The position numbers were made by a program, and so were the translations under genes. The notes beneath the pieces are model-generated. The model had not been told where the DNA came from and searched no databases. It was given only the letters and a program-made list of their open reading frames with translations. Below, one piece after another: positions 8,726-23,491 of a stretch of 27,240 nt of DNA; positions within the stretch are counted from its first letter, which is position 1, and each line of letters begins with the position of its first letter. Source of the DNA: a virus; the IMG/VR virus record IMGVR_UViG_3300045933_000251, positions 1 to 27,240 of that record; one strand, written 5' to 3'.

Positions 8726-9139
8726 ATGCGAGTAGGCGCGTTGGTTGTTGTGCTGCTGTGGGCGGTGCCGAGTCTGGCGCAGACCGGGGTGCCGGCCGCG
8801 TGGACGGTGCGGATCTACCAGGCGGGGCAGACCGCCCCGATCCAGACGTTCACGGTGACCGCGCCGCTGTGCAATCAGGCGCCCCCGCCGGTGGAGCCCA
8901 GCCCGGTCGTCAATCCGACGACGCACGTCTGGGACGATCCGGTCAATCTCTCGCGGGTGTGCCTCGTGCACGACGCGCCGCGACTCGCGGCGCTGGAGGA
9001 CGGCGCGTACGAATCGACGGTGAGCGCGTCCAATGCCGCGAATGACTCCAGCGCGGAGACGCCGCGCGTCCCTTTCGTGCGGCGGCGGCCGAACCCGCCG
9101 GCTGCACCGACGGGCTATCGACTTATCCGTCAGGGGTAG
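8726..9139 (+). CDS. Exported protein 1 (signal peptide, unknown)
   Basis: 137 residues from ATG 8726. The N-terminus RVGALVVVLLWAVPSLAQ is a Sec-type signal peptide, with probable cleavage near residue 19. The predicted mature part begins AAWTVRIYQAGQTAPIQTF and looks like a single beta-sandwich domain, with two cysteines (LCNQ, RVCLV) and a Pro-rich tail (RRRPNPPAAPTGYRL). It resembles fibronectin-like exported domains in general pattern only. It is the first of five signal-peptide proteins in the next 5.4 kb. Function is unknown. Confidence 0.6.
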   Translation: MRVGALVVVLLWAVPSLAQTGVPAAWTVRIYQAGQTAPIQTFTVTAPLCNQAPPPVEPSPVVNPTTHVWDDPVNLSRVCLVHDAPRLAALEDGAYESTVSASNAANDSSAETPRVPFVRRRPNPPAAPTGYRLIRQG

Positions 9140-9141
9140 AG

Positions 9142-9273
9142 GTGACGGGACGGGTGCGGACGGCGCAACTGACAGCCCGGATCGGGGAGCTCGAACGCCA
9201 AGGCTGGGACGTCGTGAGCTATGAGCGGGTGAATCCGGTCTGGACGCGGCTCACCGTGTGGTGCGCTCGATGA
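9142..9273 (+). CDS. 43-residue protein
   Basis: GTG 9142 starts two bases after the upstream stop, and the stop overlaps ATG 9270 by 4 bases. The peptide reads TAQLTARIGELERQGWDVVS then YERVNPVWTRLTVWCAR, a plausible helix plus two strands. No family is recognised. It is supported only by gene spacing and sensible composition. Confidence 0.4.
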   Translation: MTGRVRTAQLTARIGELERQGWDVVSYERVNPVWTRLTVWCAR

Positions 9274-9455
9274 CGGACGCCGGCGCGGTGGCGGCGATCG
9301 AGGCGGCGCAGCAGCGGCTCATCGCCGCGTATCTCGCCGCGTACCGGCGGCCACGCCCGGACACCGGCCGCTCGCAGCGCGACACCTGGTATCGCGACCT
9401 CGCCTGGCGCACGACGCCGGCCGATGCCGCGCGGCGCGAGGCGCGCGCCGCATGA
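9270..9455 (+). CDS. 61-residue helical protein
   Basis: ATG 9270 lies in the preceding stop overlap, and the TGA at 9453 overlaps the next ATG at 9452. The sequence AVAAIEAAQQRLIAAYLAAY is a strong amphipathic helix, followed by basic SQRDTWYRDLAWR. Function is unknown. Confidence 0.45.
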   Translation: MTDAGAVAAIEAAQQRLIAAYLAAYRRPRPDTGRSQRDTWYRDLAWRTTPADAARREARAA

Positions 9456-11101
9456 GTCAGTCGCACACGAATGCCCGCGCGGCCGCGCCGACGGCGCGCG
9501 CGCGGGTCACCCGACGAGATCCTATGCGCCACGGACTGATCGCCCTCGTCGGCCTCCTGCTGCTGTGGGCGCAGCCGGCCGGCGCGGCGAATTACTGCGT
9601 CAAGTCGGGCGGGAACGACGCGACCGCCAAGGCGTCGATTGTCTACGTCGCCGGGAACGAAGCGGGGTCGACGTGTTGGGAGACGATCGGCCGCGCGGTG
9701 TGGGGAGACGAAACGCGGTCCACGCCCAACAGCATGGAGGCCATCGACGCGGGCGATACGGTCTACGTGTTCGGCGCCACGTATCCGTACTCCGCGCAAT
9801 GTTCGGCGACGATCGGCGTCTGCCGGCTGACGGTGCTCTACAACCCGGAGAACAGCGGGGCATCGGGAAACCCGATCACGATAACGTGTGTCGGCACGTG
9901 CCTGGTCGCGGCCCAAAACTGGAACGGGCCAGCCGTGGGCGCGAACACCAACGACTACATCAAGTGGTACGCGGACATCGCGCAGGGCCACAAGTGGACG
10001 ATGACCGCGTATTCGGCATCGGACGACAACGCGGGCGCGAGCGAGGTCGATGTCACGCCGGATACCGGCCCGGTCGTCTTTGTCGGCTGCACGGGCTGCT
10101 CGATTGAAGGAGCCGAGATCGCCGGCGGAGCCGCGAACACATACGCTGGCGACAACTACCCGGCCATCCGCCTGCAGGGCTGTAATAGCTGCACGGTGCG
10201 CAACACCATCGTCACGAACTTCTACACCACTGACGGCACCCACGCCTATGCCATCAACACCTACGACGGCGCGGAGGGCACGCTCATCGAGCACAACGAG
10301 TTTGACACCGTCGATGTGTGTCTCGCGCCGAAGGATACCGGGCCTGGGACGACGACGACCATTGTGTATCGGTTCAATATCTGCACGAACAGCAAGCGCG
10401 CGTTAGGGTGGTCGATCTCGACCCTCAACAACACGCAGATCCATCAAAACATCTTCTCTGGGCTCTACACCGCGGCGGCGGCTGAAGCGTTCGTCTACCC
10501 GACCGGCAACGACATGGCCGACGTGGACATCGTCAACAATGTGTTCTACGACGGCAGTGGCGGAGACACCTGTATTTGGAACGGTGGCTTCGACGGGTCG
10601 CGCTTCTGGAACAACATCTGTTTCACCGCGCCGCGGATGATCTATCACGACTCCGGCGCGACAGGTCCAATCGCGGCCGATCTGGACATCGAGCACAGCA
10701 TCTTCTACAACGCGACCACGGTGTTTTATACGGGCGGCGACGGGTCGCTGTCGTTCGCCGATTGGAAGACCGCGTATGCGGCTCAGTGCGTGGCGTCGCC
10801 TGCGTGCGTGACCACTGATCCACTCTTCGCGAATCCGGCCGGGGACGATTACCGACTCTGCACGGAGGCGGGTGTGCCGCATCCGAATTGCGCCGGGGCA
10901 AGTCCCGCGATTGGCCTGGGCGTGGATGTATTGGATCTGGATGGGGATGCCTCCACAACCGACAGCATCGATGCGGGCGTGTATGTGACCGGGACAGAAG
11001 TCATCGGCCTGACGACCAATGAGACGCCAGCGACCAGGTATCGGCTGCGATTCCGGATTGCGATGTTGCTGTGGCAGTTGGCGCAAGGGCCGCTGCTGTG
11101 A
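9452..11101 (+). CDS. Exported Cys-rich right-handed parallel beta-helix protein
   Basis: 549 residues from ATG 9452, or 525 from ATG 9524. The later start gives a clean signal peptide (RHGLIALVGLLLLWAQPAGA, then NYC). The earlier start has the operon overlap but adds a 24-residue Arg/Ala extension. The body shows repeated beta-helix coils with Asn and short strands: GCSIEGAEIAGG, GCNSCTVRNTIVTNFY, GTLIEHNEFDTVDVC, NTQIHQNIFSGLY, DVDIVNNVFYDGSGG. It ends with the DPLFANPAGDDYRLC / SPAIGLGVDV / DAGVYV capping pattern typical of exported beta-helix proteins. The predicted mature part contains 18 cysteines. Related folds act as polysaccharide lyases, tail spikes or adhesins; no catalytic triad can be assigned. 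Confidence 0.7.
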   Translation: MSQSHTNARAAAPTARARVTRRDPMRHGLIALVGLLLLWAQPAGAANYCVKSGGNDATAKASIVYVAGNEAGSTCWETIGRAVWGDETRSTPNSMEAIDAGDTVYVFGATYPYSAQCSATIGVCRLTVLYNPENSGASGNPITITCVGTCLVAAQNWNGPAVGANTNDYIKWYADIAQGHKWTMTAYSASDDNAGASEVDVTPDTGPVVFVGCTGCSIEGAEIAGGAANTYAGDNYPAIRLQGCNSCTVRNTIVTNFYTTDGTHAYAINTYDGAEGTLIEHNEFDTVDVCLAPKDTGPGTTTTIVYRFNICTNSKRALGWSISTLNNTQIHQNIFSGLYTAAAAEAFVYPTGNDMADVDIVNNVFYDGSGGDTCIWNGGFDGSRFWNNICFTAPRMIYHDSGATGPIAADLDIEHSIFYNATTVFYTGGDGSLSFADWKTAYAAQCVASPACVTTDPLFANPAGDDYRLCTEAGVPHPNCAGASPAIGLGVDVLDLDGDASTTDSIDAGVYVTGTEVIGLTTNETPATRYRLRFRIAMLLWQLAQGPLL

Positions 11102-11937
11102 GGGGGCGGCTGTGGGTGGCGGCTGTCGTCGGTCGCGGTGCTGTGTCGGGTGACGCGCGCCAGCGCAGACCGGCACGGGCAAGTGGTCGTCGTGGCGGCG
11201 CCGGGCTGATCGGCCGGTCCCTCGCGCTCGTCTGCGTCCTGCTGTGGACGGCGCCTGCCGTCGCGCAGTCGGTCGCCCACGATGGCGAGGCCGACGTCAC
11301 CAATGTGACCGGCAGTGGCACGACCGTCACGATGGCGGGCAAGCCGACGGCCGGGTCCAATCGGATCGGCATCGTCGGATGTGTGATCGGGGCAGTGCCT
11401 GGCACCGTCACCGCAACGTGGGATAGCGTGTCGATGACGGCGTTCGGCAGCGCGACGAATCCGACCGATGGCCGATCGGTCCATCTGTTCCGGATTGATG
11501 ACCCACCGACCGCCGCGTCATCGGTGGTGGTCACGATCGATAACACCACCTCGCTGATCTGCTCTGCGTCGAGCTTTTCTGGTGCGCACGACACGCAGGA
11601 CGCAATGGCTGTGGGCGACAGCGGCACGGCCGATCCGGCCACGGTGACATGCTCTGCCACGCCCGACGAATTTATCGTAGACGCGCTCTATTTCCTGGGC
11701 GCCGCCACGCCCCCGAGTCCGAGCACGGGCACGGCCAATACCGGATCACCGACCGATCAGGGCTCCTGGTTCGGGGGTCATTCTCGGCAGGACGGCAATA
11801 ACGCCACCTCTGACGCGATGACGTGGACCCTAACCACGCCCACGCAATGGACGCAGGTCTGTAACGTGATTCGGGCGGCGGCGGGGAGCGGTGGGCCGAC
11901 GCCGGGCTCTTTGTCGTCGATGGGCGTGGGCCGATGA
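11098..11937 (+). CDS. Exported beta-sandwich protein
   Basis: 279 residues from GTG 11098 (4-base overlap with the previous gene). The signal-like segment SLALVCVLLWTAPAVAQ lies about 45 residues in, so the true start may be further downstream, although no good ATG exists there. The mature domain follows a recognisable bacterial/phage surface pattern: GTTVTMAGKPTAGSNRIGIV, ATWDSVSMTAFGSATN, VHLFRIDDPPTAASSVVVTI, then FSGAHDTQDAM. This is a beta-sandwich repeatedly found in secreted or virion proteins of unknown ligand. It has four cysteines after the signal. The tail is Gly/Ser/Pro-rich. Confidence 0.6.
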   Translation: MRGRLWVAAVVGRGAVSGDARQRRPARASGRRGGAGLIGRSLALVCVLLWTAPAVAQSVAHDGEADVTNVTGSGTTVTMAGKPTAGSNRIGIVGCVIGAVPGTVTATWDSVSMTAFGSATNPTDGRSVHLFRIDDPPTAASSVVVTIDNTTSLICSASSFSGAHDTQDAMAVGDSGTADPATVTCSATPDEFIVDALYFLGAATPPSPSTGTANTGSPTDQGSWFGGHSRQDGNNATSDAMTWTLTTPTQWTQVCNVIRAAAGSGGPTPGSLSSMGVGR

Positions 11938-12003
11938 CGCCGCCGCGGGGGCTCGTCCTCGCCGTCGGCCGCTCGGGCTCTCGCCGCGAAGGAGTGATGA
12001 TCC

Positions 12004-12450
12004 GTGGCCGATAACGTCGCCATCACTGCAGGGTCGGGCACCTCGATTGCGACCGACGACATCAGCAGCGTTCACTATCAGCGCATCAAGCGCTCGGTGG
12101 GCGCCGATGGGTCCGCGACCGACTATCTCGACAAGTCCTCGCGCTCGGACACCTACACCGCGGCGGCCAACGGGACGACCGTCGATGTGTCGGCGCAGGG
12201 CATGAAGCGGTTCGGCCTGCAGGTCAAGCAGACCGGCACGGTCTCGTCGTGGACCGTGCTCCTCGAGGTCAGTCTCGACGGCACGAACTTCGTGACCGTG
12301 CTGACGCACACGAAGGCGGACGACGGGGACGGCGCCATCGCCTTCACGGGGGCCAATCTCTATCCGGCGCTGTATTTCCGATCACGGTGTTCGGCCATCA
12401 CGCTGGGGGGCGGGACGAACGTGATCGCCACGATTGTGGGGATGCCATGA
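12004..12450 (+). CDS. Phage virion-associated beta protein (no signal peptide)
   Basis: 148 residues from GTG 12004, with aaggag at about 11990. The sequence NVAITAGSGTSIATDDISSV, then HYQRIKRSVGADGSATDYLD, is typical of short beta-rich phage proteins found among tail/fibre genes. A second half (SSWTVLLEVSLDGTNFVTVL, then ALYFRSRCSAITLGGGTN) looks like a jelly-roll or carbohydrate-binding-type domain. It has one cysteine and no signal peptide, unlike both neighbours. It is likely a virion or adhesion component. The stop overlaps the next ATG by 4 bases. Confidence 0.6.
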   Translation: MADNVAITAGSGTSIATDDISSVHYQRIKRSVGADGSATDYLDKSSRSDTYTAAANGTTVDVSAQGMKRFGLQVKQTGTVSSWTVLLEVSLDGTNFVTVLTHTKADDGDGAIAFTGANLYPALYFRSRCSAITLGGGTNVIATIVGMP

Positions 12451-13733
12451 AGCGAGGGTGCGCCATCGCGTTGGTCGCGCTGATCGGGCTGCTGTCGGCG
12501 CAGCCGGCCGTCGCGCAGAACACGCCGCAGGTCAACACGGAGCTGCCGACGGCGGCCGCGCTCAGCGATGCCGTCTCGAATCCGACCGCGCCTGGCGTCG
12601 GCGGGTTCGCGATGGTGTGGGACGGCTCGACGCAGTGGAAGCGGCTGGCGGTCGGCACCGCCGGCTCCGCGGCCACGACCGTCCTGACGATCCAGGGCAT
12701 CGCCTCGGGGACGCCCGTGCGCGTGGATGTGGCGCAGGTCCTCGGCTCGACGCTCTCAGCGACCAATCCGCTGCCGGTCCGGCTGGCCAATGCGAGCGGC
12801 TACATCAGTGAAGACACGCAGTCGGTGTTCGGAGGCGCCGTAACGTTCACGGCGGGCGCCGCGCCGACCGGCGGTTTCGGGACGTGGTGCCGCGTCAGTG
12901 CGTCGGCGCCCTCGACGACTGGCGTCGCTGATGACGACGCGGTGCTGCCGTGGTGTAAGAACACCGGCGAGCTGCAGGTCGGCGTGATCACGGTGCCGAC
13001 CGATCCGTTCGGGGCGAACGCGGACGCGGCGAGCGCGACCGGATCGATCAGCGCGAAGCTGCGGTTCATTGCGGCGACCGGCATCCCGGTGACGTCGCTG
13101 CCGACGGTCGTCTTGCAGGCGGAGACGACGAAGGTGATCGGCACGGTGCGCGCGCTCGGCAACGGCGGCGCCGCTTTCGACCAGGCGACGGGGTCCGCGG
13201 TACCGGCCAATGCGCTCTACATGGGCGTCAACGGCCCGTCGGGCAACCTCCGCGGCTGGACGGCGGTGAATCCGAGCGGCGCGATTTACGCCGGCCAGGT
13301 CGACCTCGCGTCGTTCCTCGGGTCGACGGTGTCGGCGAGCAATCCGATCTGGGTCGCGACTGTGCCGACGGCGACGGGAGGCTGGTCCGCGCTGAATGCG
13401 ACGGCGGCCGACGGCGCGACCGCGTGCACCAATTCCGCGCAGTCGGTGAAGGGCAGCCAGGGCACCTTCGGCGGCTACTACATCAACAATCCGAACACGT
13501 CCGACGTCTGGCTGCACGTCTACAACGTGGCCTCGGGATCGGTGACGGTCGGGACCACGACCCCGGCGCTGTCGTTCCGGATTTCCGGTGTGTCGGCGAA
13601 TTCGGTCGGGGCGAACCTCGAGCTCGCTAACGGCGTGCAGTTCTCGACGGCCATCAGTATCGCGTGCACGAGCACGGCGGGCGGGAACGGCGCGCCGTCG
13701 AACGCGGTCGAAGCGGACATCTTCTACAAATGA
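12447..13733 (+). CDS. Exported beta-rich fibre-like protein
   Basis: 428 residues. ATG 12447 is favoured by the 4-base overlap and gives a clear signal peptide (KRGCAIALVALIGLL, SAQPAVAQ). Repeated segments of the form VAQVLGSTLSATNPLPVRL and DLASFLGSTVSASNPIWVA (about residues 92-110 and 286-304) mark at least two copies of a short motif often seen in phage tail/fibre-associated proteins. The C-terminal domain (TFGGYYINNPNTSDVWLHVY, then NGVQFSTAISIACTST) resembles a beta-jelly-roll. The mature part has four cysteines. A signal peptide on a fibre-like phage protein is odd, because virions assemble in the cytoplasm. Confidence 0.6.
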   Translation: MKRGCAIALVALIGLLSAQPAVAQNTPQVNTELPTAAALSDAVSNPTAPGVGGFAMVWDGSTQWKRLAVGTAGSAATTVLTIQGIASGTPVRVDVAQVLGSTLSATNPLPVRLANASGYISEDTQSVFGGAVTFTAGAAPTGGFGTWCRVSASAPSTTGVADDDAVLPWCKNTGELQVGVITVPTDPFGANADAASATGSISAKLRFIAATGIPVTSLPTVVLQAETTKVIGTVRALGNGGAAFDQATGSAVPANALYMGVNGPSGNLRGWTAVNPSGAIYAGQVDLASFLGSTVSASNPIWVATVPTATGGWSALNATAADGATACTNSAQSVKGSQGTFGGYYINNPNTSDVWLHVYNVASGSVTVGTTTPALSFRISGVSANSVGANLELANGVQFSTAISIACTSTAGGNGAPSNAVEADIFYK

Positions 13734-14062
13734 CGCCGCTGCGTATCGCGCGCCGGGTCGTCGTCGGGGTCGTGCTCGCGCTGGCGCTGGCTGCCGGCGT
13801 GGAGGCGCAGGAGCCGGCGTCGACGGACGCCAGAGTCGCGAAGCTCGAGCAGGAGATCGCCGAGCTGCGCCAGTTGCTGACGAAGGCGATCGCGGCGCTG
13901 ACCGAGCTATCGAAGCAGCTGCCGCAGCCGTCGCCGGCCGAGCTCGCGAAGCAGTCCCGCCTGGCGATGGAGAAGACCTGCAAGGACGTGGGGTTGAAGT
14001 TTGTCGGCGTGACGGCACAGCAGCAGCCGACACAGACGGTCGTTGTGCAGTGTGCCCCCTGA
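13730..14062 (+). CDS. Exported coiled-coil protein
   Basis: 110 residues from ATG 13730, overlapping the previous stop. The signal peptide RRVVVGVVLALALAAGVEAQ is followed by a clean coiled coil (ARVAKLEQEIAELRQLLTKA, then IAALTELSKQL). A C-terminal part has two cysteines (EKTCKD and VVVQCAP). It could trimerise or anchor another exported protein. Function is unknown. Confidence 0.6.
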   Translation: MTPLRIARRVVVGVVLALALAAGVEAQEPASTDARVAKLEQEIAELRQLLTKAIAALTELSKQLPQPSPAELAKQSRLAMEKTCKDVGLKFVGVTAQQQPTQTVVVQCAP

Positions 14063-14077
14063 GACGACGAGGACACG

Positions 14078-14515
14078 ATGTCAAAGACAAACTCCTGGGA
14101 GAATTCGCTCCTCCTGCACTTGTTCAACAACGACAACGTGGCGAACATCGGCGACGCCACGGGGATTCGCGGGAGTTCGTCGGCTGGGAGCCTCTATGTC
14201 TCGCTGCACACGTCGGATCCCGGCGAGACCGGCGACCAGACGACCAACGAGACGTCCTACACCAGCTACTCGCGCGTCGCGGTGGCGCGCAGCGGGGCGG
14301 GGTGGACCGTCACGAATAACAGCGTCAGTCCGGCGGCGAACGTCGACTTCCCCGCGTGCACGGGGGGCTCGGCGACCATCACGCATTTTGGCATCGGCAC
14401 GGCGTCGAGCGGCGCCGGCGTGCTGCTCTACAAAGGCACGGTGACGCCGAACATCAGCGTCAGCAACGGCGTGACGCCGCGACTCACGACGGCCTCGGCG
14501 GTGACGGAAGACTGA
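14078..14515 (+). CDS. Phage tail-fibre family protein
   Basis: 145 residues. The order of motifs is that of a widespread small tail-fibre family: ENSLLLHLFNNDN near the start, LYVSLHTSDPGETGDQTTNE, then YTSYSRVAVARSGAGWTV, VDFPACTGGSATITHFGIG and VLLYKGTVTP. It has no signal peptide. The start ATG 14078 follows gacgaggaca. It is probably a virion adhesin or base structural element near the tail tip. Confidence 0.7.
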   Translation: MSKTNSWENSLLLHLFNNDNVANIGDATGIRGSSSAGSLYVSLHTSDPGETGDQTTNETSYTSYSRVAVARSGAGWTVTNNSVSPAANVDFPACTGGSATITHFGIGTASSGAGVLLYKGTVTPNISVSNGVTPRLTTASAVTED

Positions 14516-14532
14516 GGCCGCTGGCGTAGCCC

Positions 14533-15378
14533 ATGTCCGCCCGGTACTGGCCGCTCCTCGCGCTCACGACGGCGATCGTTGTCGCCGAGGGCGCCGGTGC
14601 GTCGACCGGGTCGGCGGCGGTGTCGGGTGTCGGGTCGGGCATCGTCTCGGCTGTCGGCGCCTCCGCCGGCGCGGCCTCGTGCACGGCCGTCGGCAGCGGC
14701 AACGTCGGCAGTGTCGTCCGCTATTGGCCGCTGCTCTCGCTGACCTCCGTCATCGCATCCGGCGGGGAAGCCCTCAGCGCCGGCCAGGCCACGGTCACCG
14801 GCATCGGGCACGCGATCTTCTCGGGCGTCGGCGCCTCGGCCGGCGCGGGCAGCGTCACCGGGGTCGGGCGATCCACCGGCGCGGGGGTGGCCTCGAGCGA
14901 TGGCCTGGCGACCCCGACCGCGGTCGGCATCTCGACGCATGCGGCCGTCGGTGCGGCGGCCGGCGCGGCGACGGTCGCCGGGGACTCGACCTCTGAGGGC
15001 GAGGGCATCGCGCACGCCGACGGGCAAGGCACGTGCGCGGGCGTCGGCGCGGCGACGGCGGCTGGCGCCGGCGCCTCCGCCGGCCAGGCCGCGGGCAGTG
15101 GGGTCGGGCGCGGCATCGCGGCGGCTGCCGCGAGTGCGCAGGGCAGTGCGACGGTCGCGGCCGCGGGCATCTCGACGTCGGCGTCGCTCGGGAGCGCCGA
15201 CGGCGTGGCGGTCTGCGCCGGCGTGGGACGCAGCGTCTCCGCGACGGTGGGGTCCTCGAGCGGATCGGCCAGTGTGCTGGGGGTGTCGCTGGCGCCGATG
15301 CCCGATGTCGTCATCCGCGTGCGGGCGGACGTCGGCATCATTCGGATCCGCCCTGACCCGGGCATGCGGGAGCTGTAG
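14533..15378 (+). CDS. Gly/Ala/Ser/Val repeat tail-fibre-like protein
   Basis: 281 residues, almost entirely built of Gly, Ala, Ser, Val and Thr. Two N-terminal units of about 59 residues begin ARYWPLLALTT (3-13) and VRYWPLLSLTS (62-72). After these comes a run of about 18-20-residue degenerate repeats of the type GVGASAGAGSVTGVGRS. The last 30 residues change to a charged strand (DVVIRVRADVGIIRIRPDP). Such low-complexity repeats in phages form thin fibre shafts, with the end as a trimer or attachment domain. It sits between tail-fibre and adaptor genes. Substrate and receptor are unknown. Confidence 0.65.
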   Translation: MSARYWPLLALTTAIVVAEGAGASTGSAAVSGVGSGIVSAVGASAGAASCTAVGSGNVGSVVRYWPLLSLTSVIASGGEALSAGQATVTGIGHAIFSGVGASAGAGSVTGVGRSTGAGVASSDGLATPTAVGISTHAAVGAAAGAATVAGDSTSEGEGIAHADGQGTCAGVGAATAAGAGASAGQAAGSGVGRGIAAAAASAQGSATVAAAGISTSASLGSADGVAVCAGVGRSVSATVGSSSGSASVLGVSLAPMPDVVIRVRADVGIIRIRPDPGMREL

Positions 15379-15381
15379 CGC

Positions 15382-15744
15382 GTGTCACTGCTGGTTGTTC
15401 GCGATGGGGCGCTCGTCACGCAGGACCCGAACGATGTGCGGGTCTATATCTTCGACTGGGACACCGACAACCTGGCCGAGGACGTCACGATCAGTAGCCA
15501 CACGTTCACGATTACCCGGTTGCGCGGCGCGGCGTCGCCGGCGTTGTCGAAGGATAGTGAAGCGATCTTGACGGCGTGGACCGATGACGCGGGGCACGAC
15601 TACGGCGCGCTGCGCACGACCCGGGTGCGGTTGAGCGGCGGGGCCCTCGGCGCGGTCTATCGCATCGACGAGACCATTGTGACCAGTGAGTCGCCGGCGC
15701 AGACGAAGGAGCGGAGTTTCCGGTTGTCGATCCAGCAGAAGTAG
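15382..15744 (+). CDS. Fibre-tail adaptor-like structural protein
   Basis: 120 residues from GTG 15382. The pattern DPNDVRVYIFDWDTDNLAED, then ISSHTFTI, LTAWTDDAG, LSGGALGAVYRIDETIVTSE and TKERSFRLSI follows the small Ig-like domain of phage fibre-tail adaptor proteins (a D-W turn, then an SGG-G-x-Y strand, then R-S-F-x-L-x-I). It probably links fibres to the tail or neck. It begins right after the repeat-fibre gene, consistent with that job. Confidence 0.6.
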   Translation: MSLLVVRDGALVTQDPNDVRVYIFDWDTDNLAEDVTISSHTFTITRLRGAASPALSKDSEAILTAWTDDAGHDYGALRTTRVRLSGGALGAVYRIDETIVTSESPAQTKERSFRLSIQQK

Positions 15745-15747
15745 CCC

Positions 15748-16080
15748 ATGCCGCAGGTCTGTTCGCATCCCGGCTGCCCCGTGCTCACGACGACGGGGCA
15801 GTGTGCCGCGCACCGGCAAGCGGCCGAGCGTGCCCGCCCGATGTTTGAGATGCGCCGGCTCTATCGCACGGCCCGGTGGCGACGGCTGCGGGCGGTGGTG
15901 CTCAGCGAGGAGCCGCTCTGTATGTGCGACGCGCATCGCGGACTGGATGCGCGTTTTATCAGTGCGGCGGTCGATCATCGGATCCCGCACCGGGGTGACG
16001 AGACGCTGTTCTGGGACCGGGCGAACCTCCGGGGGCTCGCCGAGGTCTGTCACAACCGGAAGACGGGCCGAGGGGGATAG
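15748..16080 (+). CDS. HNH endonuclease
   Basis: 110 residues. The fingerprint is YRTARWRRLRAVVLSEEPLC, then VDHRIPHRGDETLFWDRANL, then CHNRKT: D76-H77 is the catalytic HN-type pair, N93 the central Asn, and C101/H102 the final element. The usual CxxC metal knuckle is LCMCDAH (C58, C60), slightly altered. Extra Cys/His at the N-terminus (C5, C10, C19, H22) suggest another metal site. Phage HNH proteins beside terminases cooperate in cutting concatemers at packaging, which fits the location just upstream of TerS and TerL. Confidence 0.85.
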   Translation: MPQVCSHPGCPVLTTTGQCAAHRQAAERARPMFEMRRLYRTARWRRLRAVVLSEEPLCMCDAHRGLDARFISAAVDHRIPHRGDETLFWDRANLRGLAEVCHNRKTGRGG

Positions 16081-16085
16081 GCGCG

Positions 16086-16607
16086 GTGGCGCACCAGGAC
16101 GACGCGCCGGCCAGTCCGTTTGTCAAGCGGACGCGCCGCTGGGAGTTCGTGAAGCAGGACGTGGTGCGGCTCGCGGCGTTGGGGCAGTCCGACAGCGAGA
16201 TCGCGACGGCCCTGGGGCTCGACCGATCGACGGTGTTCCGGTGGCGTCAGTCGGGCAAGCTGGGTCGGCCGCGGCGGCGTGAGTCGCTGGCGTTGCCGTT
16301 TGAGGATGTCTCTCCGGCGGAGTGGGCGAAGGCGGTGCGTGAGTCCTACGACCTCGACGCGACGGATGGGCAGTTTGTCTTGATGGCGGAATCGGTGCTG
16401 ACGATCGCGCGGGACGTGGCGCAGCCGGTGGCCATTCGGCTGAACGCGATGGGGCGCTTTCAGTCGCTGGTCAAGCAGTTGAAGGTGATCGCCCGCGCCG
16501 GCGCCGACGACGAGGGCGACGCGCCCGAGGCGCCAAAGCGGCAGACGTTCCAGGTGCCGCGGCGGTCCGGCGAGGATCCGCGCGCGGTGCTGACGGCGGT
16601 GAAGTGA
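16086..16607 (+). CDS. Terminase small subunit (HTH)
   Basis: 173 residues from GTG 16086. A helix-turn-helix lies at about residues 20-57 (WEFVKQDVVRLAALGQSDSE, then IATALGLDRSTVFRWRQSG), the DNA-recognition part typical of small terminase subunits. The middle is helical (FVLMAESVLTIARDVAQPVA, then LNAMGRFQSLVKQL) as expected for the oligomerisation core. The C-terminus is acidic, then polar. It recognises the packaging site and loads TerL. The assignment rests on fold pattern plus position immediately before TerL. Confidence 0.7.
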   Translation: MAHQDDAPASPFVKRTRRWEFVKQDVVRLAALGQSDSEIATALGLDRSTVFRWRQSGKLGRPRRRESLALPFEDVSPAEWAKAVRESYDLDATDGQFVLMAESVLTIARDVAQPVAIRLNAMGRFQSLVKQLKVIARAGADDEGDAPEAPKRQTFQVPRRSGEDPRAVLTAVK

Positions 16608-16669
16608 TGCGAGGAAGGGATGCTGCTGTGCAGACGTCTGCACGGATCGAGGAGCGGGGGCGCGCGTGA
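16607..16669 (+). CDS. Possible 20-residue leader ORF between TerS and TerL
   Basis: ATG 16607 overlaps the TerS stop by one base, and the TGA 16667-16669 overlaps the TerL GTG by 4 bases, so translation could pass through it. The peptide is basic (MRGRDAAVQTSARIEERGRA). It contains the third 16-bp palindrome. It may only serve as a coupling leader, or be chance. Confidence 0.25.
   Translation: MRGRDAAVQTSARIEERGRA
16628..16643. repeat. 16-bp palindrome, copy 3 of 3
   Basis: GTGCAGACGTCTGCAC is identical to the copies at 1171 and 8293, here in the short junction between TerS and TerL rather than deep in a coding region. The location beside packaging genes allows a role in packaging-site recognition or in transcript control. 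Confidence 0.75.
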
Positions 16670-18279
16670 TCCTGATGGTCCCGAAAGACCTCGTGTCGTC
16701 TCCGACGCTGGGGCCGCAGGTCTGCGACTTCATCGAGTCGAACATGGTGCGCGGCCCGGGCGATCTGCGCGGGCAGCCGGTCGTGCTCGACGACGAGTGG
16801 CGCGCGCTGATCTTCCGCATCTACGAAATCTATCCCCGCGGGCACTCCAACGCCGGCCGGCGGCGGTTCAAGCGGGTCGGGCTGTCGCTCCCCAAGGGCG
16901 TCAGCAAGACGGAGACGGCCGCGATGATCGCGATCTGCGAGCTGCATCCGGAGGCGCCGGTGCGGTGTGTGGGGTTCACCAAGCACGGCGAGCCGATCGG
17001 CGGCCCGGTGACGGATCCGTATATTCCGCTCGTCGCGACGTCGCAGGAGCAGTCGGACGAACTGTGCTTCACCGCGATGCGGACGATCCTCGAAGGCTCG
17101 CCGCTGCGCGACGACTTCGACGTCGGGCTCGAGCGCATTCTGCGGAAGAAGGGCGACGGCAAGGCCGAGGCGCTGAGCTCGAACCCGAATTCACGCGACG
17201 GCGCGCGGACGACCTTCTCGGTGATGGACGAGAGCCACCGGCTCACGCTGCCGCGGCAGCTGCAGGCGCACACGGTCATGTTGACCAACATCCCGAAGCG
17301 CAAGATCGCCGACGGGTGGATGCTCGAGGTGACCACGGCCCCGGAGCCCGGGGCGGGGTCGGTGGCGGAAAAGACGATGGAGTACGCGCGGGCGGTCGAC
17401 GAGGGCCGCGCGAGCGATACATCGCTCTTCTTCTTCCATCGGCAGGCGAGCCCGGAGCACGACCTGGCGACGCGCGACGGGCGTCGCGCGGCGGTCATCG
17501 AGGCGTCAGGCGCCGCGGCGGCGTGGCGCGACATCGACGCCATCGTGGCGCTCTGGGATGACCCCGGCGCTGATCACGCGTATCTCGAGCGCGTCTACTG
17601 CAACCGGCTCGTCAAGGGTGCGACGCAGGCCTTCAACGTCGAGGCCTTCAAGGAGCTGAAGTCGGCACATGCGGTGGCGGCGGGCGCGCAGATCGTCATT
17701 GGCTTCGATGGCGCGCAATTCCACGACTCGACTGGGCTCGTCTGCACCGAGATCGCCACCGGGCATCAGTGGGTCGGCGGCGTCTGGGAGCGGCCGACGT
17801 CCTGGCCGCGCGACAAGGAATGGAAAGTGCCGGCCGACGAGGTCGACGCCCGCGTGCGCGAGATTTTCGAGACGTACGACGTCTGGCGCATGTACGCGGA
17901 TCCGCCCTACTGGCAGTCGTGGGTGTCGAAGTGGGTCGGGGAGTTCGGCGAGGACCGCGTCATCGAGTGGTGGACGAACCGTCGGCGCCAGATGGCGGCC
18001 GCGCTCGAGAACTTCAGCACCGGCATCGCCGAGGGCGCGTTCTCCCATGACGGCGACGCGCGGTATCTCCGCCACATCGGCAACAGCCGGCGCGCCGATC
18101 TGCCGCAGCTCGACGATCAGGGCCGGCCGCTCTGGTTGATTCAGAAGGACCGCCCCGATTCCCCGCACAAGATCGACCTGGCGATGGCGGGCGTGCTCAG
18201 CTATGAAGCGCGGACCGACGCCCTCGCTGCGGGTCTGCTGACGACGGGTGAATCCGCGAGCGTGGAGGTGTGGGCGTGA
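16666..18279 (+). CDS. Terminase large subunit (ATPase and nuclease)
   Basis: 537 residues from GTG 16666. ATPase part: a Walker A-like SLPKGVSKTE at 74-83 and Walker B TTFSVMDESH at 182-191, followed by the coupling strand VMLTNIPKRK. Nuclease part: FDGAQFHDSTGLV with D348, YADPPYW with D412, and HKIDLAMAG with D504, the three-acid RNaseH-like site of terminases. It drives ATP-dependent DNA translocation through the portal and cuts the concatemer. The P-loop has Ser where the canonical motif has Gly before Lys-Thr. The ADPPYW box resembles terminases of HK97-type siphoviruses. It is followed at once by a small membrane protein and the portal gene. Confidence 0.92.
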   Translation: MILMVPKDLVSSPTLGPQVCDFIESNMVRGPGDLRGQPVVLDDEWRALIFRIYEIYPRGHSNAGRRRFKRVGLSLPKGVSKTETAAMIAICELHPEAPVRCVGFTKHGEPIGGPVTDPYIPLVATSQEQSDELCFTAMRTILEGSPLRDDFDVGLERILRKKGDGKAEALSSNPNSRDGARTTFSVMDESHRLTLPRQLQAHTVMLTNIPKRKIADGWMLEVTTAPEPGAGSVAEKTMEYARAVDEGRASDTSLFFFHRQASPEHDLATRDGRRAAVIEASGAAAAWRDIDAIVALWDDPGADHAYLERVYCNRLVKGATQAFNVEAFKELKSAHAVAAGAQIVIGFDGAQFHDSTGLVCTEIATGHQWVGGVWERPTSWPRDKEWKVPADEVDARVREIFETYDVWRMYADPPYWQSWVSKWVGEFGEDRVIEWWTNRRRQMAAALENFSTGIAEGAFSHDGDARYLRHIGNSRRADLPQLDDQGRPLWLIQKDRPDSPHKIDLAMAGVLSYEARTDALAAGLLTTGESASVEVWA

Positions 18280-18461
18280 GACTTGGCGCAATCCTCGCGA
18301 AGGTGTCGGTGAGTGATCTGCTGGCGCTCGCGGCGGCCGCGTGTGCCCTGTATGGACTGACGCTGCTGCATCCGGCGGCGCCGTGGATCGGCGCGGCCCT
18401 CGCGCTCGGGTTCGTCAGTATCGAGCTCGAGAAGCGGGACGCGAGGGGCCGGGAGTCGTAG
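18276..18461 (+). CDS. Small two-helix membrane protein
   Basis: 61 residues from GTG 18276 (ggagg at 18264), overlapping the TerL stop by 4 bases. Two hydrophobic helices are seen: SDLLALAAAACALYGLTLL and PWIGAALALGFVSI, with a short charged tail (ELEKRDARGRES). Small membrane proteins at this position occur in some phages. A holin-like or superinfection role is possible but not shown. Confidence 0.6.
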   Translation: MRLGAILAKVSVSDLLALAAAACALYGLTLLHPAAPWIGAALALGFVSIELEKRDARGRES

Positions 18462-18464
18462 ACG

Positions 18465-19781
18465 ATGGGATTCATGGCCAAACTGATCGAGCGGCGATTC
18501 GGGGAAGGCCCGTCGTCGACGTTGGCGGAGCCGCACCGGTCGCTGCTCGAGGCGCTCGGGCTGCAGCCCTCGACGTCAGGGGTCAACGTCACCGTCGCGA
18601 AAGCCGAAGGCCTGCCGGCGGTGTATGGCTGCGTGGACGTGCGCGCGTCAATCGCGGCCTGGTTGCCGCTGAAGTTGATGCGCGCGCTCGAGGGGGGCGG
18701 CCGCGAGCCCGCGATCGATCACGACCTCTACACGATTCTCCACGACCTTCCGAATCACCTGATGACGGCGTATGACTTCCGCGCGGTCATGGGGCGATGG
18801 TTGTTGCTCTGGGGGACGGCGTACGCGGAGATTCAGCGCGACACGCAGGGCCGTGTGATCGGCCTGTGGCCGCTGCGCACGGATCGCATGGCGGCGCCGA
18901 AGACGGACGGTCTCAACCGGCTGACGTGGGCGTACGCGATGCCCGACGGATCCTCGAAGACATTTATCTGGGATCCGGGGCGGCCGCCGCTGATGCGGCT
19001 GATGATCAATTCGCTGGACGGGATCACCGGGCGATCGCCGATTCGCGTGTTGATGGATTCGATCGGCTCGTCGCTCGCGGCGCGGGACTTCGGCGCGTAT
19101 CTGTGGGCGAACCGGGCGAACGTCGGTGGGGTGCTCTCGTTCACGGCGCCGCAGAAGCCAGACCAGCGCAAGACGAACAAGGAAAACTGGGAGAAGGCGA
19201 TGACCGGTGTGCACAACGCCGGGCGCACGGCGGTCCTTGACGGCGAGGTCGACTACAAGCCGATCGGGATCCCGCCGCAGGAAGCGCAGTTCATCGAGCT
19301 GATGCACTACAACCGGAGCGATATTCGCGGCTACATCTACCGCGTGCCCGGGTTCCTGGTCGGGGACACGGAGAAGTCGACGTCCTGGGGCTCGGGCATC
19401 GAGCAGCAGATGCGCGGGTTCCTGACGGTGACGATGATGCCCGACCTGACGGCGTGGACCCAGGCCATCGGGCGCGACCTCTTGACGGTCAAGAGTTTCT
19501 CGACGCACCGAGCGATCTTTGTCACCGATGCGCTCGTTCAGGCGGACCTGCTGCAGCGGGTCCAGGCCGCGAAGACGCAGATCGAATCGGGCACGCTGTC
19601 GCCGAACGAAGGCCGCGCCTTGATGGACAAAGGGCCGCGGATGTTGCCAGACGGATCGCGCGATCCGGCGGGTGACGCCTACTGGAAGCCCGCGAACATG
19701 TCATCGACCGCGGATCCGGAGCCGGATCCCGAACCGGAGCCGACGCCTCCCGCGCCAGGCGCCGACCCCAACGACGACTGA
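18465..19781 (+). CDS. Portal protein (HK97 type)
   Basis: 438 residues. Family hallmarks: VNVTVAKAEGLPAVYGCVDV, then RASIAAWLPLKLMR at the N-terminal clip, FRAVMGRWLLLWGTAYAEIQ, LWPLRTDRM, and YRVPGFLVGDTEKSTSWGSG. The tail is a Pro/Glu/Asp-rich run (DPEPDPEPEPTPPAP). It forms the dodecameric DNA channel at one capsid vertex, binds TerL during packaging and connectors afterwards. ATG 18465 follows three bases after the upstream stop; an in-frame ATG at 18474 is also possible. Confidence 0.92.
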   Translation: MGFMAKLIERRFGEGPSSTLAEPHRSLLEALGLQPSTSGVNVTVAKAEGLPAVYGCVDVRASIAAWLPLKLMRALEGGGREPAIDHDLYTILHDLPNHLMTAYDFRAVMGRWLLLWGTAYAEIQRDTQGRVIGLWPLRTDRMAAPKTDGLNRLTWAYAMPDGSSKTFIWDPGRPPLMRLMINSLDGITGRSPIRVLMDSIGSSLAARDFGAYLWANRANVGGVLSFTAPQKPDQRKTNKENWEKAMTGVHNAGRTAVLDGEVDYKPIGIPPQEAQFIELMHYNRSDIRGYIYRVPGFLVGDTEKSTSWGSGIEQQMRGFLTVTMMPDLTAWTQAIGRDLLTVKSFSTHRAIFVTDALVQADLLQRVQAAKTQIESGTLSPNEGRALMDKGPRMLPDGSRDPAGDAYWKPANMSSTADPEPDPEPEPTPPAPGADPNDD

Positions 19782-19795
19782 CGAGGACGACAACG

Positions 19796-20395
19796 ATGCA
19801 GATTGAAGGACGCATGGTGCATGAGCCCGTCACGGCGTTCCGGGCCGACGGCGAGCCGACCAAACTCGACGGCTACGCGGCGGTCTTCAGCCGCGAAACG
19901 GTGATCGGCGACTTGTTTCGCGAAGTCATCGAGCCCGGCGCATTCAAGGACGCCGTCAAGGACGGCGACGTGCGTGGGCTGTTCAATCACGACCCGAACC
20001 TGGTGCTCGGGCGGACCTCGAGTAAGACGATGACGTTGCGCGAGGACGCCAAGGGCCTGCACTACGTGATCGAATCGCCGGACACGACGGTCGGCCGTGA
20101 TGTGATGGCGCTCGTGCAGCGCGGCGACGTGACCGGCTCGAGCTTCGCCTTCACGGTGCGCAGGGATTCCTGGACGCGACCCAGCAAGCCCGGCGAACTC
20201 CCGCTGCGGACGATTCATGAAGTCGAATGGCTGCGCGACGTCGGGCCCGTGACGTTCCCGGCGTTCGAGGAAACGAGCGTACAGGCGCGGGACGCGGCCG
20301 CCGCGACGATTCCGCTCGAGGAGCCCACGGGCGACCTGGCGGCGTTGTCGCGCGCGCGCGCGGAGATCGCGGTCGCGGAGATCGAATGCCTGTAG
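19796..20395 (+). CDS. Prohead serine protease (S78-type)
   Basis: 199 residues. The sequence DGYAAVFSRETVIGDLFREV, then IEPGAF, starts the fold; LFNHDPNLVLGR gives the catalytic His (H65), and GDVTGSSFAF gives the catalytic Ser (S115 or S116). An acidic HEVEWLRDVGPVTFPAFEET segment supplies the likely third residue. The length is close to HK97 gp4. It cleaves the N-terminal delta/scaffold region of the capsid protein during prohead maturation. The C-terminal helix (ALSRARAEIAVAEIE) overlaps the Com-like gene by 10 bases. Confidence 0.92.
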   Translation: MQIEGRMVHEPVTAFRADGEPTKLDGYAAVFSRETVIGDLFREVIEPGAFKDAVKDGDVRGLFNHDPNLVLGRTSSKTMTLREDAKGLHYVIESPDTTVGRDVMALVQRGDVTGSSFAFTVRRDSWTRPSKPGELPLRTIHEVEWLRDVGPVTFPAFEETSVQARDAAAATIPLEEPTGDLAALSRARAEIAVAEIECL

Positions 20396-20601
20396 GCGTC
20401 GAGGCGCGGAGCGACCCGGCGAAGGCGCCGGAAGCTGTCGTCGTGGCCGCCTGGGAGCCGGTGCACTGTCGGAAGTGCAAGCGCATGTTGTGCCGGATGA
20501 CGGTGCGCGCGCTGCGGTCCGGTGAAATGGTCGAGACAAAATGTCCGAAGTGTGGTAGCTTGAACTACCTCGTAGGTTCAACGCCTACGTCAGACAACTG
20601 A
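20386..20601 (+). CDS. Com-like zinc-finger regulator
   Basis: 71 residues from ATG 20386 inside the end of the protease gene. HCRKCKRMLCRM and TKCPKCGSLNYL form a two-CxxC zinc ribbon (C28, C31, C53, C56), the pattern of the Mu Com family. Mu Com binds mom mRNA and opens its start site. No mom gene is seen here, so the target may be another RNA; a highly structured RNA stretch lies immediately at and after this gene's end. The last residues (VGSTPTSDN) overlap the hairpins described there. Confidence 0.65.
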   Translation: MPVGVEARSDPAKAPEAVVVAAWEPVHCRKCKRMLCRMTVRALRSGEMVETKCPKCGSLNYLVGSTPTSDN

Positions 20602-20693
20602 GTCGTCAGGCTCCTCGAGAGCCGCCCAGAGGTCCAGCGCGCGGAGAGACCCCAACCCATTCGCGCAGGCTGGGCCTCTTTTGTCGTACGACA
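20554..20693 (+). promoter_or_regulatory. Chain of hairpins between Com-like gene and capsid gene
   Basis: Consecutive stems: GGTAG/CTACC (20554-20569); CGTAGG/CCTACG with loop TTCAACG (20571-20589), a tRNA T-arm-like hairpin; CTGA/TCAG (20598-20609); GGCTC/GAGCC (20609-20623, sharing a base); and CCCAACC/GGCTGGG with one mismatch (20651-20674), followed by cctctttt. Directly after comes the perfect 12-bp palindrome TGTCGTACGACA (20682-20693). The last stem plus T-run could be a weak terminator or attenuator. The whole could be a regulatory leader for the capsid gene at 20719. Folding is by eye. Confidence 0.45.
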
Positions 20694-20718
20694 GGGGCGG
20701 CCCATTGGAGCTTGACCG

Positions 20719-21981
20719 ATGGACGCCAAGGCCCTCCGTGAGAAGCGCGCGAAGCTGATCGCTGACGCGCGCGCCATCATCGACAAAGCGGACACCGAAC
20801 AGCGCGGTCTCTCGGCCGACGAAGTCACCGCCCAGCGCAAGTTGCTGGACGACGCGAAGCTGCTCGTCGAGCAGATCCGCAACGCCGTGGAGCTCGAGCA
20901 GGAAGAGCGCGACATCGCCGCGTCGCTGCCCGACTCGCAGCGGACGCGCGAGCGCCGCCAGGAGCCGGATCTGCCGGAAGAGCGCAAGGCCTACCAGCGC
21001 GCGCTCACGAGCTACCTGCGTCTCGGGTTCAACTTCATGTCGCCCGAGGATCAGCGCGCGCTGCAGACGGGCTACGTCCAGTTCGACAGCCGCGCGCAGA
21101 GCACGCTGTCCGGCGCCGCGGGCGGGTTCGCTGTGGCGCCCGATACCTCGATGTACGGCAAGGTCATCGAAGCGCTGAAGTACTTCGGCGGCGTCGAGAT
21201 CGCCGGCGCGACGGTGCTGACCACGTCGACCGGCGCCGACCTGCCGATCGCCACCGACGACGACACGTCGAACACGGGCTCGATCGTCGCGGAAGAGGGC
21301 TCGCACGCGAGCGGCACGGACGTGACGATGGGACAGCGCGTCCTCCACGCGTATCTCTACTCGTCGAAGATCATCAAGGTCTCCTGGCAGCTGTTGCAGG
21401 ATGCCGAGTTCGACTTCGAAGCGTACCTGTCGCGCAAGTTCGGCACGCGGCTCGGCCGCGCGCAGAACGCGCATTACACGACCGGGACCGGTGTCGCGCA
21501 GCCGCAGGGCTTCGTTACGGCGGCCACGGTCGGGCGTCAATCGGCCACCGGCAACTCGACGTCGGTGCCGTTCGATGACGTGATTCGGCTGATTCACTCC
21601 GTCGACGTCGCCTATCGCAACAGCGGCTGCAAGTTCATGACGAGCGACACGACGGCGCTCGCGCTCGAGCTGCTGAAGGACGGCGACGGGCAATACCTCT
21701 GGCAGCAGAGCAACCAGGAAGGCGCGCCGGCGCGCATCAAGGGCTTCCCCGTCGTCATCAACAACGACATGGCGACGATGTCGGCCAGCGCGAAGCATTC
21801 CGCGTTTGGCGACTTCTCGAACTACTACATCCGCCGCGTGTCGGGCATTCAGGTGCTGCGCCTGCAGGAGCTCTACGCGGCGAACGGGCAGGTCGGGTTC
21901 ATGGCGTTCATGCGGGCCGACGGCGGCCTCGTCGACGCCGGCCAGGGTCCGATCAAGACCCTGCAGAACAGCGCGTCGTAG
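20719..21981 (+). CDS. Major capsid protein (HK97 fold)
   Basis: 420 residues. Residues 1-105 are a charged coiled coil (MDAKALREKRAKLIADARAI, then KLLVEQIRNAVELEQEERD), the delta/scaffold region removed by the protease. The mature part opens with LSGAAGGFAVAPDTSMYGKV and contains VLTTSTGADLPIATDD, LYSSKIIKVSWQLLQDAEFD, FEAYLSRKFGTRLGRAQNAH, YTTGTGVAQPQGFV, and INNDMATMSASAKHSAFGDF near the end. These match the N-arm, E-loop, spine helix and P/A domains of HK97-type capsids. It assembles the icosahedral shell around the portal. ATG 20719 follows attggagcttgaccg. Confidence 0.95.
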   Translation: MDAKALREKRAKLIADARAIIDKADTEQRGLSADEVTAQRKLLDDAKLLVEQIRNAVELEQEERDIAASLPDSQRTRERRQEPDLPEERKAYQRALTSYLRLGFNFMSPEDQRALQTGYVQFDSRAQSTLSGAAGGFAVAPDTSMYGKVIEALKYFGGVEIAGATVLTTSTGADLPIATDDDTSNTGSIVAEEGSHASGTDVTMGQRVLHAYLYSSKIIKVSWQLLQDAEFDFEAYLSRKFGTRLGRAQNAHYTTGTGVAQPQGFVTAATVGRQSATGNSTSVPFDDVIRLIHSVDVAYRNSGCKFMTSDTTALALELLKDGDGQYLWQQSNQEGAPARIKGFPVVINNDMATMSASAKHSAFGDFSNYYIRRVSGIQVLRLQELYAANGQVGFMAFMRADGGLVDAGQGPIKTLQNSAS

Positions 21982-21989
21982 GTGAGCCG

Positions 21990-22015
21990 GAGGCCGGGGC
22001 TTCGGCGCCGGCCTC
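21990..22015 (+). terminator. Strong hairpin after the capsid gene
   Basis: GAGGCCGG (21990-21997) pairs perfectly with CCGGCCTC (22008-22015) around a 10-base loop, 9 bases after the capsid stop. It is followed by a pyrimidine tract (tctctct) rather than a clean T-run, so it may be a partial terminator or an mRNA 3'-end stabiliser that sets capsid mRNA apart from downstream genes. Confidence 0.5.
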
Positions 22016-22051
22016 TCTCTACAACATCTTTTCGAGAGAGGCAGAGAGATC

Positions 22052-22492
22052 ATGGTTGTTTCCGGCTATCTCAGCGACTGCGTCAAGATCACGAAGATCA
22101 AGGACCACTCGTCCGCCAACACCACGGCGATCACGTCGGACGCCGTCGACATGGCCGGCTACGACGGCGCGCTGTTCCTCACGTCGTACGGCACGGCCGC
22201 GAGCGACAACATCGCGAAGCTGCAGCAGTCGAGCGATGACGGCGGGTCCGATGACTACTCGGATCTCGAGGGCACCGGCACGACGTCCGGGTCGTCCGAT
22301 GAAGACATCTTCATCGACATCAACCGTCCGACGAAGCGCTACCTCAAGCTCGTGGCCGCCCGCGGGACCTCGAGCACGCTCGAATCGATCTGGGTCATCC
22401 AGTACAAAGCGCGCTCGCTGCCGATCGACAACACCACGACCGGCACGATCGCGGGCGAGCAGCACAATTCGCCGGCCGAAGGCACGGCGTAG
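22052..22492 (+). CDS. Capsid-associated (decoration-like) protein
   Basis: 146 residues, ATG 22052 after gagaggcagagag. The sequence SDAVDMAGYDGALFLTSYGT, then DEDIFIDINRPTKRYLKLVA, ARGTSSTLESIWVIQYKARS and GTIAGEQHNSPAEGTA is a beta-rich small protein that recurs immediately downstream of HK97-type capsid genes. This suggests a decoration or head-stabilising role. No cysteine pairs or catalytic motif are seen. It is separated from the next gene by a hairpin. Confidence 0.6.
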   Translation: MVVSGYLSDCVKITKIKDHSSANTTAITSDAVDMAGYDGALFLTSYGTAASDNIAKLQQSSDDGGSDDYSDLEGTGTTSGSSDEDIFIDINRPTKRYLKLVAARGTSSTLESIWVIQYKARSLPIDNTTTGTIAGEQHNSPAEGTA

Positions 22493-22518
22493 GTTTTTCG
22501 TCCCTTCAGTGGGTAGGT

Positions 22519-22550
22519 CGCGCGAGGCGGTTGCCATGCCGTCTCGCGCG
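22519..22550 (+). other. Long hairpin between decoration-like genes
   Basis: CGCGCGAGGCGG (22519-22530) pairs with CCGTCTCGCGCG (22539-22550) over 12 positions with one G-U pair; the loop is 8 bases. No T-run follows. It may stabilise upstream mRNA or tune translation of the gene at 22577. Confidence 0.5.
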
Positions 22551-22576
22551 GCTGCAACCAACGAAAGCAGGGTGTC

Positions 22577-23218
22577 ATGGCCGATACGAATTACCAGCCC
22601 AAGGTCTACCGGAAGCAGGGTGGCGACACGCTCGTCATCGCGTCCGGCGGAAAGATCGAAGTCGAATCCGGCGGCGAGATCGAATACCAGTCCGGCGCGG
22701 TCGACGACAAGACCGGCGACCGGAACAAGGGGTTTATCAATCTCGATCTATTCAGCGCCCAGATCATCGGGTCGAACGAGATTCCCGACTCGGGCAATTT
22801 CCTCGACGGCAACACGGCGCCGGAAATCAAGCGCACGAACGCGGCGACGGACAAATCCGCGTTTGTCAACTGGATTGCCAACGGCGTGGAGGAAATCCAG
22901 TTCGCGCCGTTCGCGTATCCGCCTGACCTGGACGACTCCGCGGCGGTCGAAGTGCATCTGCTCGCAAAGATGGCCGCCGGCGGCATGGACACGCCCGTGA
23001 TCGCGATCGGCTACTTCGAAGGCGTCGGCGACACGAACGCCGGCGGCAATACCGCGGCGCTCTCGATCACGCTGGCCGACGTGAGCGTGTCGATCGCGGC
23101 CGGCGACGTCGGGGCGCATCCCAAGGCGGCGACCGTCACGGTGACGCCGGCGGCGCACGCGAACGAAGCCGTCGAGGTGTATGCCGCGTGGATCGAGTAC
23201 ACGCGGAAGACGTCGTAA
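22577..23218 (+). CDS. Head fibre/decoration-like protein
   Basis: 213 residues, ATG 22577. The N-terminus KVYRKQGGDTLVIASGGKIE, then VESGGEIEYQSGA, is a short beta-helix-like repeat (VESGGxIEYQSG) typical of phage head-fibre or decoration proteins. The remainder is a beta-sandwich (NLDLFSAQIIGSNEIPDS, then FVNWIANGVEEIQFAPFAYP, VIAIGYFEGVGDTN). Location in the head module supports attachment to the capsid surface. The end overlaps the next gene's GTG by 31 bases. Confidence 0.6.
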   Translation: MADTNYQPKVYRKQGGDTLVIASGGKIEVESGGEIEYQSGAVDDKTGDRNKGFINLDLFSAQIIGSNEIPDSGNFLDGNTAPEIKRTNAATDKSAFVNWIANGVEEIQFAPFAYPPDLDDSAAVEVHLLAKMAAGGMDTPVIAIGYFEGVGDTNAGGNTAALSITLADVSVSIAAGDVGAHPKAATVTVTPAAHANEAVEVYAAWIEYTRKTS

Positions 23219-23490: not shown

Positions 23491-23491
23491 C

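Follow-up and report, generated by a model that had tools for sequence, protein, structure and literature searches.

A Candidate Cassette of Sec-Exported Proteins beside the Fibre Module of an Uncultured HK97-Type Tailed Phage

Introduction

Phage particles are built in the cytoplasm, and phage annotation tends to count fibre-like genes as virion parts. What, then, is to be made of a run of phage genes that lies beside fibre genes, encodes fibre-like proteins, and appears to equip them with signal peptides? The locus in question is found in a linear 27,240-base IMG/VR virus record of an uncultured phage, the whole of which was analysed here and is called the window. The question is of some consequence. 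If export signals are added to fibre-type modules again and again, then certain predicted receptor-binding proteins are in fact secreted, and host-range prediction from them is misled. Annotation would then also conceal a group of extracellular phage products that change the cell surface or the biofilm. If exported proteins return to the particle, virion assembly would include a periplasmic stage.

Genome Context

The right half of the window encodes, on the + strand and in order, terminase, portal, head protease, major head protein, connectors, and major tail protein. From this head and tail gene order, the phage is of the HK97-type tailed kind. A filamentous-phage coat was considered for the leader-bearing proteins and was rejected, the phage being HK97-type tailed. 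The left part of the window has ParB-like, methyltransferase, and replication-initiation genes. At the left edge, a gene for a ParB-HTH protein (1-1251) is overlapped by a DNA methyltransferase gene (1248-1883). The segment 3287-4402 encodes a DUF5131/phrog_2045 protein of the Gp37/Gp68 type (E ~1e-84 and 2e-98), which is strongly conserved in phages. The five leader-bearing genes lie between the left-part genes and the head genes, and are followed by an HNH gene, a probable small terminase gene, and the large terminase gene.

Many contigs with a related large terminase start about 500 bases upstream of that gene (L012, L018, L024, L027, L028, L044, and L053). This suggests a physical genome end, a cos or a terminal repeat, immediately ahead of the gene for the small terminase, and the window would cross it. 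If the packaged genome ends there, as it probably does, the leader-gene block would sit at the right end of the genome. Contaminating host DNA was rejected as the source of the block; a second contig is 99.99% identical over 13298-24574, a segment that takes in only the right part of the block.

Export Signals

The leaders were scored by a heuristic that looks for a positive n-region and a hydrophobic core, in n/h/c order, and an AxA-type site; gene calls came from a simple codon-usage caller. The genes of the block, all on the + strand and named here by their start positions, are as follows.

8726..9139, + strand: 137 aa; Sec leader MRVGALVVVLLWAVPSLA^Q; mature part with 2 Cys; leader score 7.24, with GAGGAA before the ATG
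9524..11101, + strand: leader MRHGLIALVGLLLLWAQPAGA^A; mature part of 504 aa with 18 Cys and β-helix-type repeats; leader score 8.29
11098..11937, + strand: leader core LALVCVLLWTAPAVA^Q; mature part with 4 Cys; start at GTG 11098 or 11143; leader score 5.91 (from 11143)
12004..12450, + strand: MADN-type, virion-like protein without a leader, assigned by its phmmer/HMM relatives; ATGA overlap with 12447
12447..13733, + strand: leader MKRGCAIALVALIGLLSAQPAVA^Q followed by a fibre-type module with homology to a protein of contig L231; 4 Cys; leader score 8.29
13730..14062, + strand: small, leader-bearing protein, probably a coiled coil (by eye); 2 Cys; ATGA overlap with 12447; leader score 7.68

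The initial annotation described five similar Sec-type leaders here, and all five hydrophobic segments are indeed in frame at the positions given. Four of them, those of 8726, 9524, 12447, and 13730, have the charged n-region, hydrophobic core, and AxA-type site of Sec/SPI signal peptides. All other genes score at most 5.9 in a wider scan of the window, the slightly wider scan from which the count of four strong leaders also comes. Scores of at least 7.2 are rare: they occur in only 14 of the 1210 called genes of this and 34 related contigs, against about 1.6 for shuffled N-termini. That larger scan was confined to called N-termini and missed 8726, whose called start is too far downstream. Export of at least four of the proteins is likely. 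A lipoprotein (Sec/SPII) class was rejected, since the translations, read directly, have no Cys at position +1 in any of the five leaders.

The starts bear on whether the leaders are translated. ORF 9452 most likely begins at ATG 9524, as the 24 residues upstream of that codon are rich in Arg and do not resemble a leader. For 8726 and 12447, the surroundings of the start codon, GAGGAA upstream of the ATG and the ATGA overlap with 12004, respectively, support starts that contain the leader rather than downstream starts that omit it. ORF 11098 is the weak member of the set. Its core is LALVCVLLWTAPAVAQ, and the nearest ATG, GTG, or TTG is GTG 11143, which leaves a 25-residue n-region; a start closer to the core would have to be a CTG or ATC codon. 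Export of this product is less certain for that reason.

The likeness of the leader cores, first noticed in the protein sequences, extends to the DNA. In pairs among the leaders at 9524, 11209 (within ORF 11098), and 12447, the DNA is more alike than codon-order shuffles predict (P<0.001), and synonymous resampling gave P values of 0.001-0.017, uncorrected for the ten pairs. No homology was found among the mature parts of the three proteins. Since the leader DNA is more alike than codon choice predicts while the mature parts have no detected homology, the comparison suggests that one leader was copied onto different proteins.

The block is not made up of leader genes throughout. The five are interleaved with two genes, 9258 (65 aa) and 12004 (148 aa), that encode proteins without a signal peptide.

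The Leader-Bearing Proteins

PHROGs, Pfam, PDB sequences, and the phage collection gave no usable match to the five proteins, and no enzyme family or active site was recognised in them. The 8726 product has no known family (Pfam and PHROG), nor was a family matched by the 11098/11143 product. The products of 8726, 11143, and 13730 are orphans. A G026 protein on L101 was entertained as a relative of 11143 and rejected, since it entered through a permissive inclusion step of an iterative search and direct phmmer did not reproduce it. In IMG/VR, no close relatives of 9524, 11143, or 8726 were found, and 12447 matched only the same virus. AlphaFold models of mature 9524 and 12447, computed without an alignment, had a pLDDT of about 34. 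An exported endolysin was rejected as an identity for any of the five, none of which has a peptidoglycan hydrolase domain in Pfam.

The 9524 protein has six repeat motifs spaced about 25-30 residues apart. The motif was defined after inspection of the sequence; with this definition, shuffled sequences averaged 0.28 motifs and none of 2000 reached six. By motif count, then, a parallel β-helix is predicted. The best Pfam match is Disaggr_assoc, sub-threshold at E=0.015, and no catalytic family scored above threshold. Searches of 398 and 301 bacterial genomes from two phyla, run without a positive control, found no relatives.

The 12447 protein carries the motifs SATNPLPV and DPFGANADAAS..GS.SAKLR. 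Its mature part shares the latter module with the leader-less protein L231 684-1355 (phmmer E=4e-10), which begins with a MADN domain like that found in window gene 12004. The relatives of 12004 by phmmer/HMM are L214 (E=2e-14), L253, L231, Pam2 (L141), and G012. Domain and module thus form one protein in L231. In the window they are divided between two genes that overlap at ATGA, the first encoding a protein with the MADN domain and the second a leader with the module. In this arrangement the Sec leader of 12447 appears to take the place of the MADN N-domain and not to be added onto it. We infer the virion status of the MADN/NPLPV family from gene position. The C-terminus of 12447 has only insignificant matches (E ~1), and a narrow DNA pattern search with its repeat gave no match.

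The mature parts contain 2 (8726), 18 (9524), 4 (11098), 4 (12447), and 2 (13730) cysteines, all even numbers; 0 or 1 is usual in this phage's head and tail proteins. Cys density over the sampled contigs is 1.52 per 100 residues for soluble proteins with a leader and 0.66 for the others, and the count is even in 10 of the 17 soluble leader proteins that have any Cys, versus 450 of 1197 other genes. Cys parity by itself is a modest argument for export. The even counts amid Cys-poor head and tail proteins fit oxidative folding outside the cytoplasm.

The Virion-Type Fibre Module and Gene Coupling

Directly to the right of the block are three genes without a confident leader.

14078..14515, + strand: Gp80-family fibre protein without a leader, outside the exported set (PF23140, 7.8e-18; phrog_240)
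14533..15378, + strand: Gly/Ala/Ser repeat protein, a probable fibre shaft by its repeats and its position between 14078 and 15382; leader score 5.8, not confident
15382..15744, + strand: Gp77-family fibre-tail adaptor without a leader (PF23148, 1.7e-9)

The two Pfam families match only 14078 and 15382 and none of the five leader genes. The order of small Gp80-like protein, larger protein, and small protein recurs in Sphingobium phage Lacusarx, Citromicrobium phage vB_CbaS-RXM, and Microcystis phage Mae-JY04. In phage LSH1, mass spectrometry detected a similar module of three proteins in the virions, one of them matching a GP4 fibril (PMC13243795). The trio 14078-14533-15382 is, on these matches, the predicted virion-type fibre of the phage, and it stands beside the leader genes. 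The 14533-15378 protein has no match in the phage collection; it resembles a short fibre shaft, and its repeat is unusual.

The earlier proposal of a fibre- or adhesin-like set acting outside the cytoplasm is supported by the leaders, the even Cys counts, and recurrence in other phages. A reading of the leader genes as the phage's fibres is not supported, the virion-type fibre module being the trio. Receptor masking, superinfection exclusion, and a decoy, the roles offered for the set, are conjectural.

From 12004 to the small terminase gene (16086), neighbouring genes overlap or lie no more than 17 bases apart, and leader genes 12447 and 13730 are therefore probably co-expressed with virion genes. 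Genes 8726, 9524, and 11143 are set off from this run by gaps of 66-131 bases.

Recurrence in Other Phages

A scan for the NPLPV-type repeat that was blind to leaders returned 28 called genes. Strong leaders occur in 4 of these (L163, L234, L243, and L249, on four contigs besides the window), compared with 9 of the 892 other genes of the same contigs (P=4e-4). The neighbours of NPLPV genes showed no significant enrichment in leader genes (3/128 vs 9/892, P=0.18). On a fifth contig, G038, two leader genes adjoin an NPLPV gene that has no leader, and tail genes lie next to them. G037 and G039 have leader genes inside head gene clusters. In G036, a leader protein with a sub-threshold GDSL-like match lies near lysis-type genes (by eye). 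G035 encodes a protein of 1108 aa that has a leader and a sub-threshold match to pectate lyases; near it are tail genes and a leader-less gene for a GDSL esterase with a chitin-binding module. The G035 locus, L263 863-7773 in an unrelated phage, has a run of leader genes together with the GDSL-esterase/chitin-binding-module gene directly downstream of the tail genes; it is the closest parallel to the window block.

Among the terminase relatives, G015 has a gene for a 531-aa protein with a leader, flanked on one side by a gene that is gp77-like in position and size and on the other by a SleB-type hydrolase; a homologue search with the 531-aa protein found only itself. G031 has two adjacent leader genes, of 149 and 870 aa, within its fibre region (L114 5538-8598). 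The 870-aa protein looks like a polysaccharide lyase by eye and has no Pfam match. A β-helix or lyase assignment made by eye for the G015 and G031 leader proteins was unsupported by Pfam and, for G015, by the motif test. Most terminase relatives, many of which are fragments, show no leader genes of this kind. Comparison across phages, which the initial annotation had called for, bears out similar leader-bearing genes of fibre-type or glycan-enzyme-like character in or near fibre, tail, or head loci; the window exemplifies an arrangement that recurs but is in the minority.

Interpretation

The reading we favour, tentatively and at slightly less than even confidence, is that the leader genes form a Sec-exported accessory cassette that acts on the cell envelope or exopolysaccharide and is made with the virion fibre module. 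Four strong leaders, even Cys counts, leader-DNA similarity, gene coupling, the leader-less fibre alongside, and recurrence are the grounds for it. Counting against it are the want of a recognised enzyme family or active site in the five proteins, the heuristic scoring of the leaders, the awkward start of ORF 11098, and the neighbours of NPLPV genes, in which leader genes are not significantly enriched. The cassette would probably be expressed together with the neighbouring fibre module. The leaders would take the fibre-type and β-helix-type proteins across the inner membrane, where cleavage after the AxA-type site would be followed by folding with disulfides. The likeliest targets of the mature proteins would then be the cell envelope or the surrounding exopolysaccharide, which they would bind or trim; progeny might be freed, receptors altered, or matrix cleared. 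We infer actual export, the time of expression, a glycan target, and a location outside the virion.

Exported proteins could instead be morons, concerned with lysogenic conversion or superinfection, that are expressed in the lysogen and alter its surface or adhesion. The precedent is λ lom of the fibre region, a gene between those for the tail tip and the tail fibre whose product bears a signal peptide and is made in the lysogen (PMC12309495); in addition, one gene of G015, a terminase relative, looks integrase-like by eye. Gene coupling speaks against it, 12447 and 13730 being tied to virion genes through overlaps instead of standing apart. No gene of the window was recognised as an integrase, a scan for σ70-type promoters found no consensus promoter in the block, and we regard this origin as unlikely.

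The kinship of 12447 with a leader-less, virion-type protein can be taken in two further directions. The proteins may be virion appendages that are exported, disulfide-bonded in the periplasm, and joined to particles at lysis, a reading that accommodates the even Cys counts and the leader genes that neighbour tail genes in G035 and G038. The leader genes in the head clusters of G037 and G039 point towards virion-linked roles and count against the accessory cassette. This phage already encodes a leader-less fibre module, though, and no precedent was found in the literature searched; we give such appendages a low probability. Their general form, in which several unrelated lineages of tailed phages export fibre-type virion proteins through Sec, fold and disulfide-bond them in the periplasm, and attach them at lysis in a second, extracytoplasmic stage of maturation, is slightly less probable still in our estimation. 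Alternatively, the hydrophobic N-termini may not serve export at all, the proteins being ordinary virion proteins with downstream starts or with N-termini used in assembly. The homologous module without a leader and the want of a well-placed start in ORF 11098 are in keeping with this. Against it are four leaders with n/h/c architecture and AxA-type sites, the start contexts of 8726 and 12447, Cys-rich mature parts with even counts amid a Cys-poor virion proteome, and a 12447 leader that replaces the MADN N-domain and does not extend it; we hold it to be quite unlikely.

Comparison with Known Systems

Single exported phage proteins, such as lom and endolysins, are already known, as is WceF in a bacterium. 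In the part of the literature that was searched, we found no description of a recurrent cassette of Sec-leader fibre-type virion modules. The window proteins resemble λ lom in that a phage protein with a signal peptide is encoded among tail genes. Lom is a single outer-membrane β-barrel of lysogeny, whereas the window has a soluble-looking set coupled to virion genes, one member of which (12447) has a module in common with a virion-type protein; none of the five has a Pfam match to the lom-type β-barrel families. Exported endolysins such as Lys44 of phage fOg44 are phage proteins with a true Sec signal peptide (PMC6116005) and differ from the window proteins in their peptidoglycan hydrolase domain.

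For 9524, the likeness is to WceF of Pantoea stewartii, an exopolysaccharide hydrolase of tailspike fold that is exported (PMC7949094) and acts on matrix glycan. Both would be exported β-helix proteins of tailspike-like architecture. WceF, however, comes from a bacterial gene, bears a Tat leader, and has had its structure solved. The leader of 9524 is of the Sec type, no homology to WceF was detected, and its β-helix is predicted from sequence. With the fibre module of Ralstonia phage GP4, the window shares the Gp80 and Gp77 Pfam families through 14078 and 15382, both leader-less; the leader genes are additional and fall outside these families. The MADN/NPLPV proteins (L231 684-1355, L193, and L214) are related to the block more directly, through the SAKLR/NPLPV module of L231 in 12447 and the MADN N-domain in 12004. 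Most of the relatives found are without a leader, whereas 12447 has a Sec leader instead of the MADN domain.
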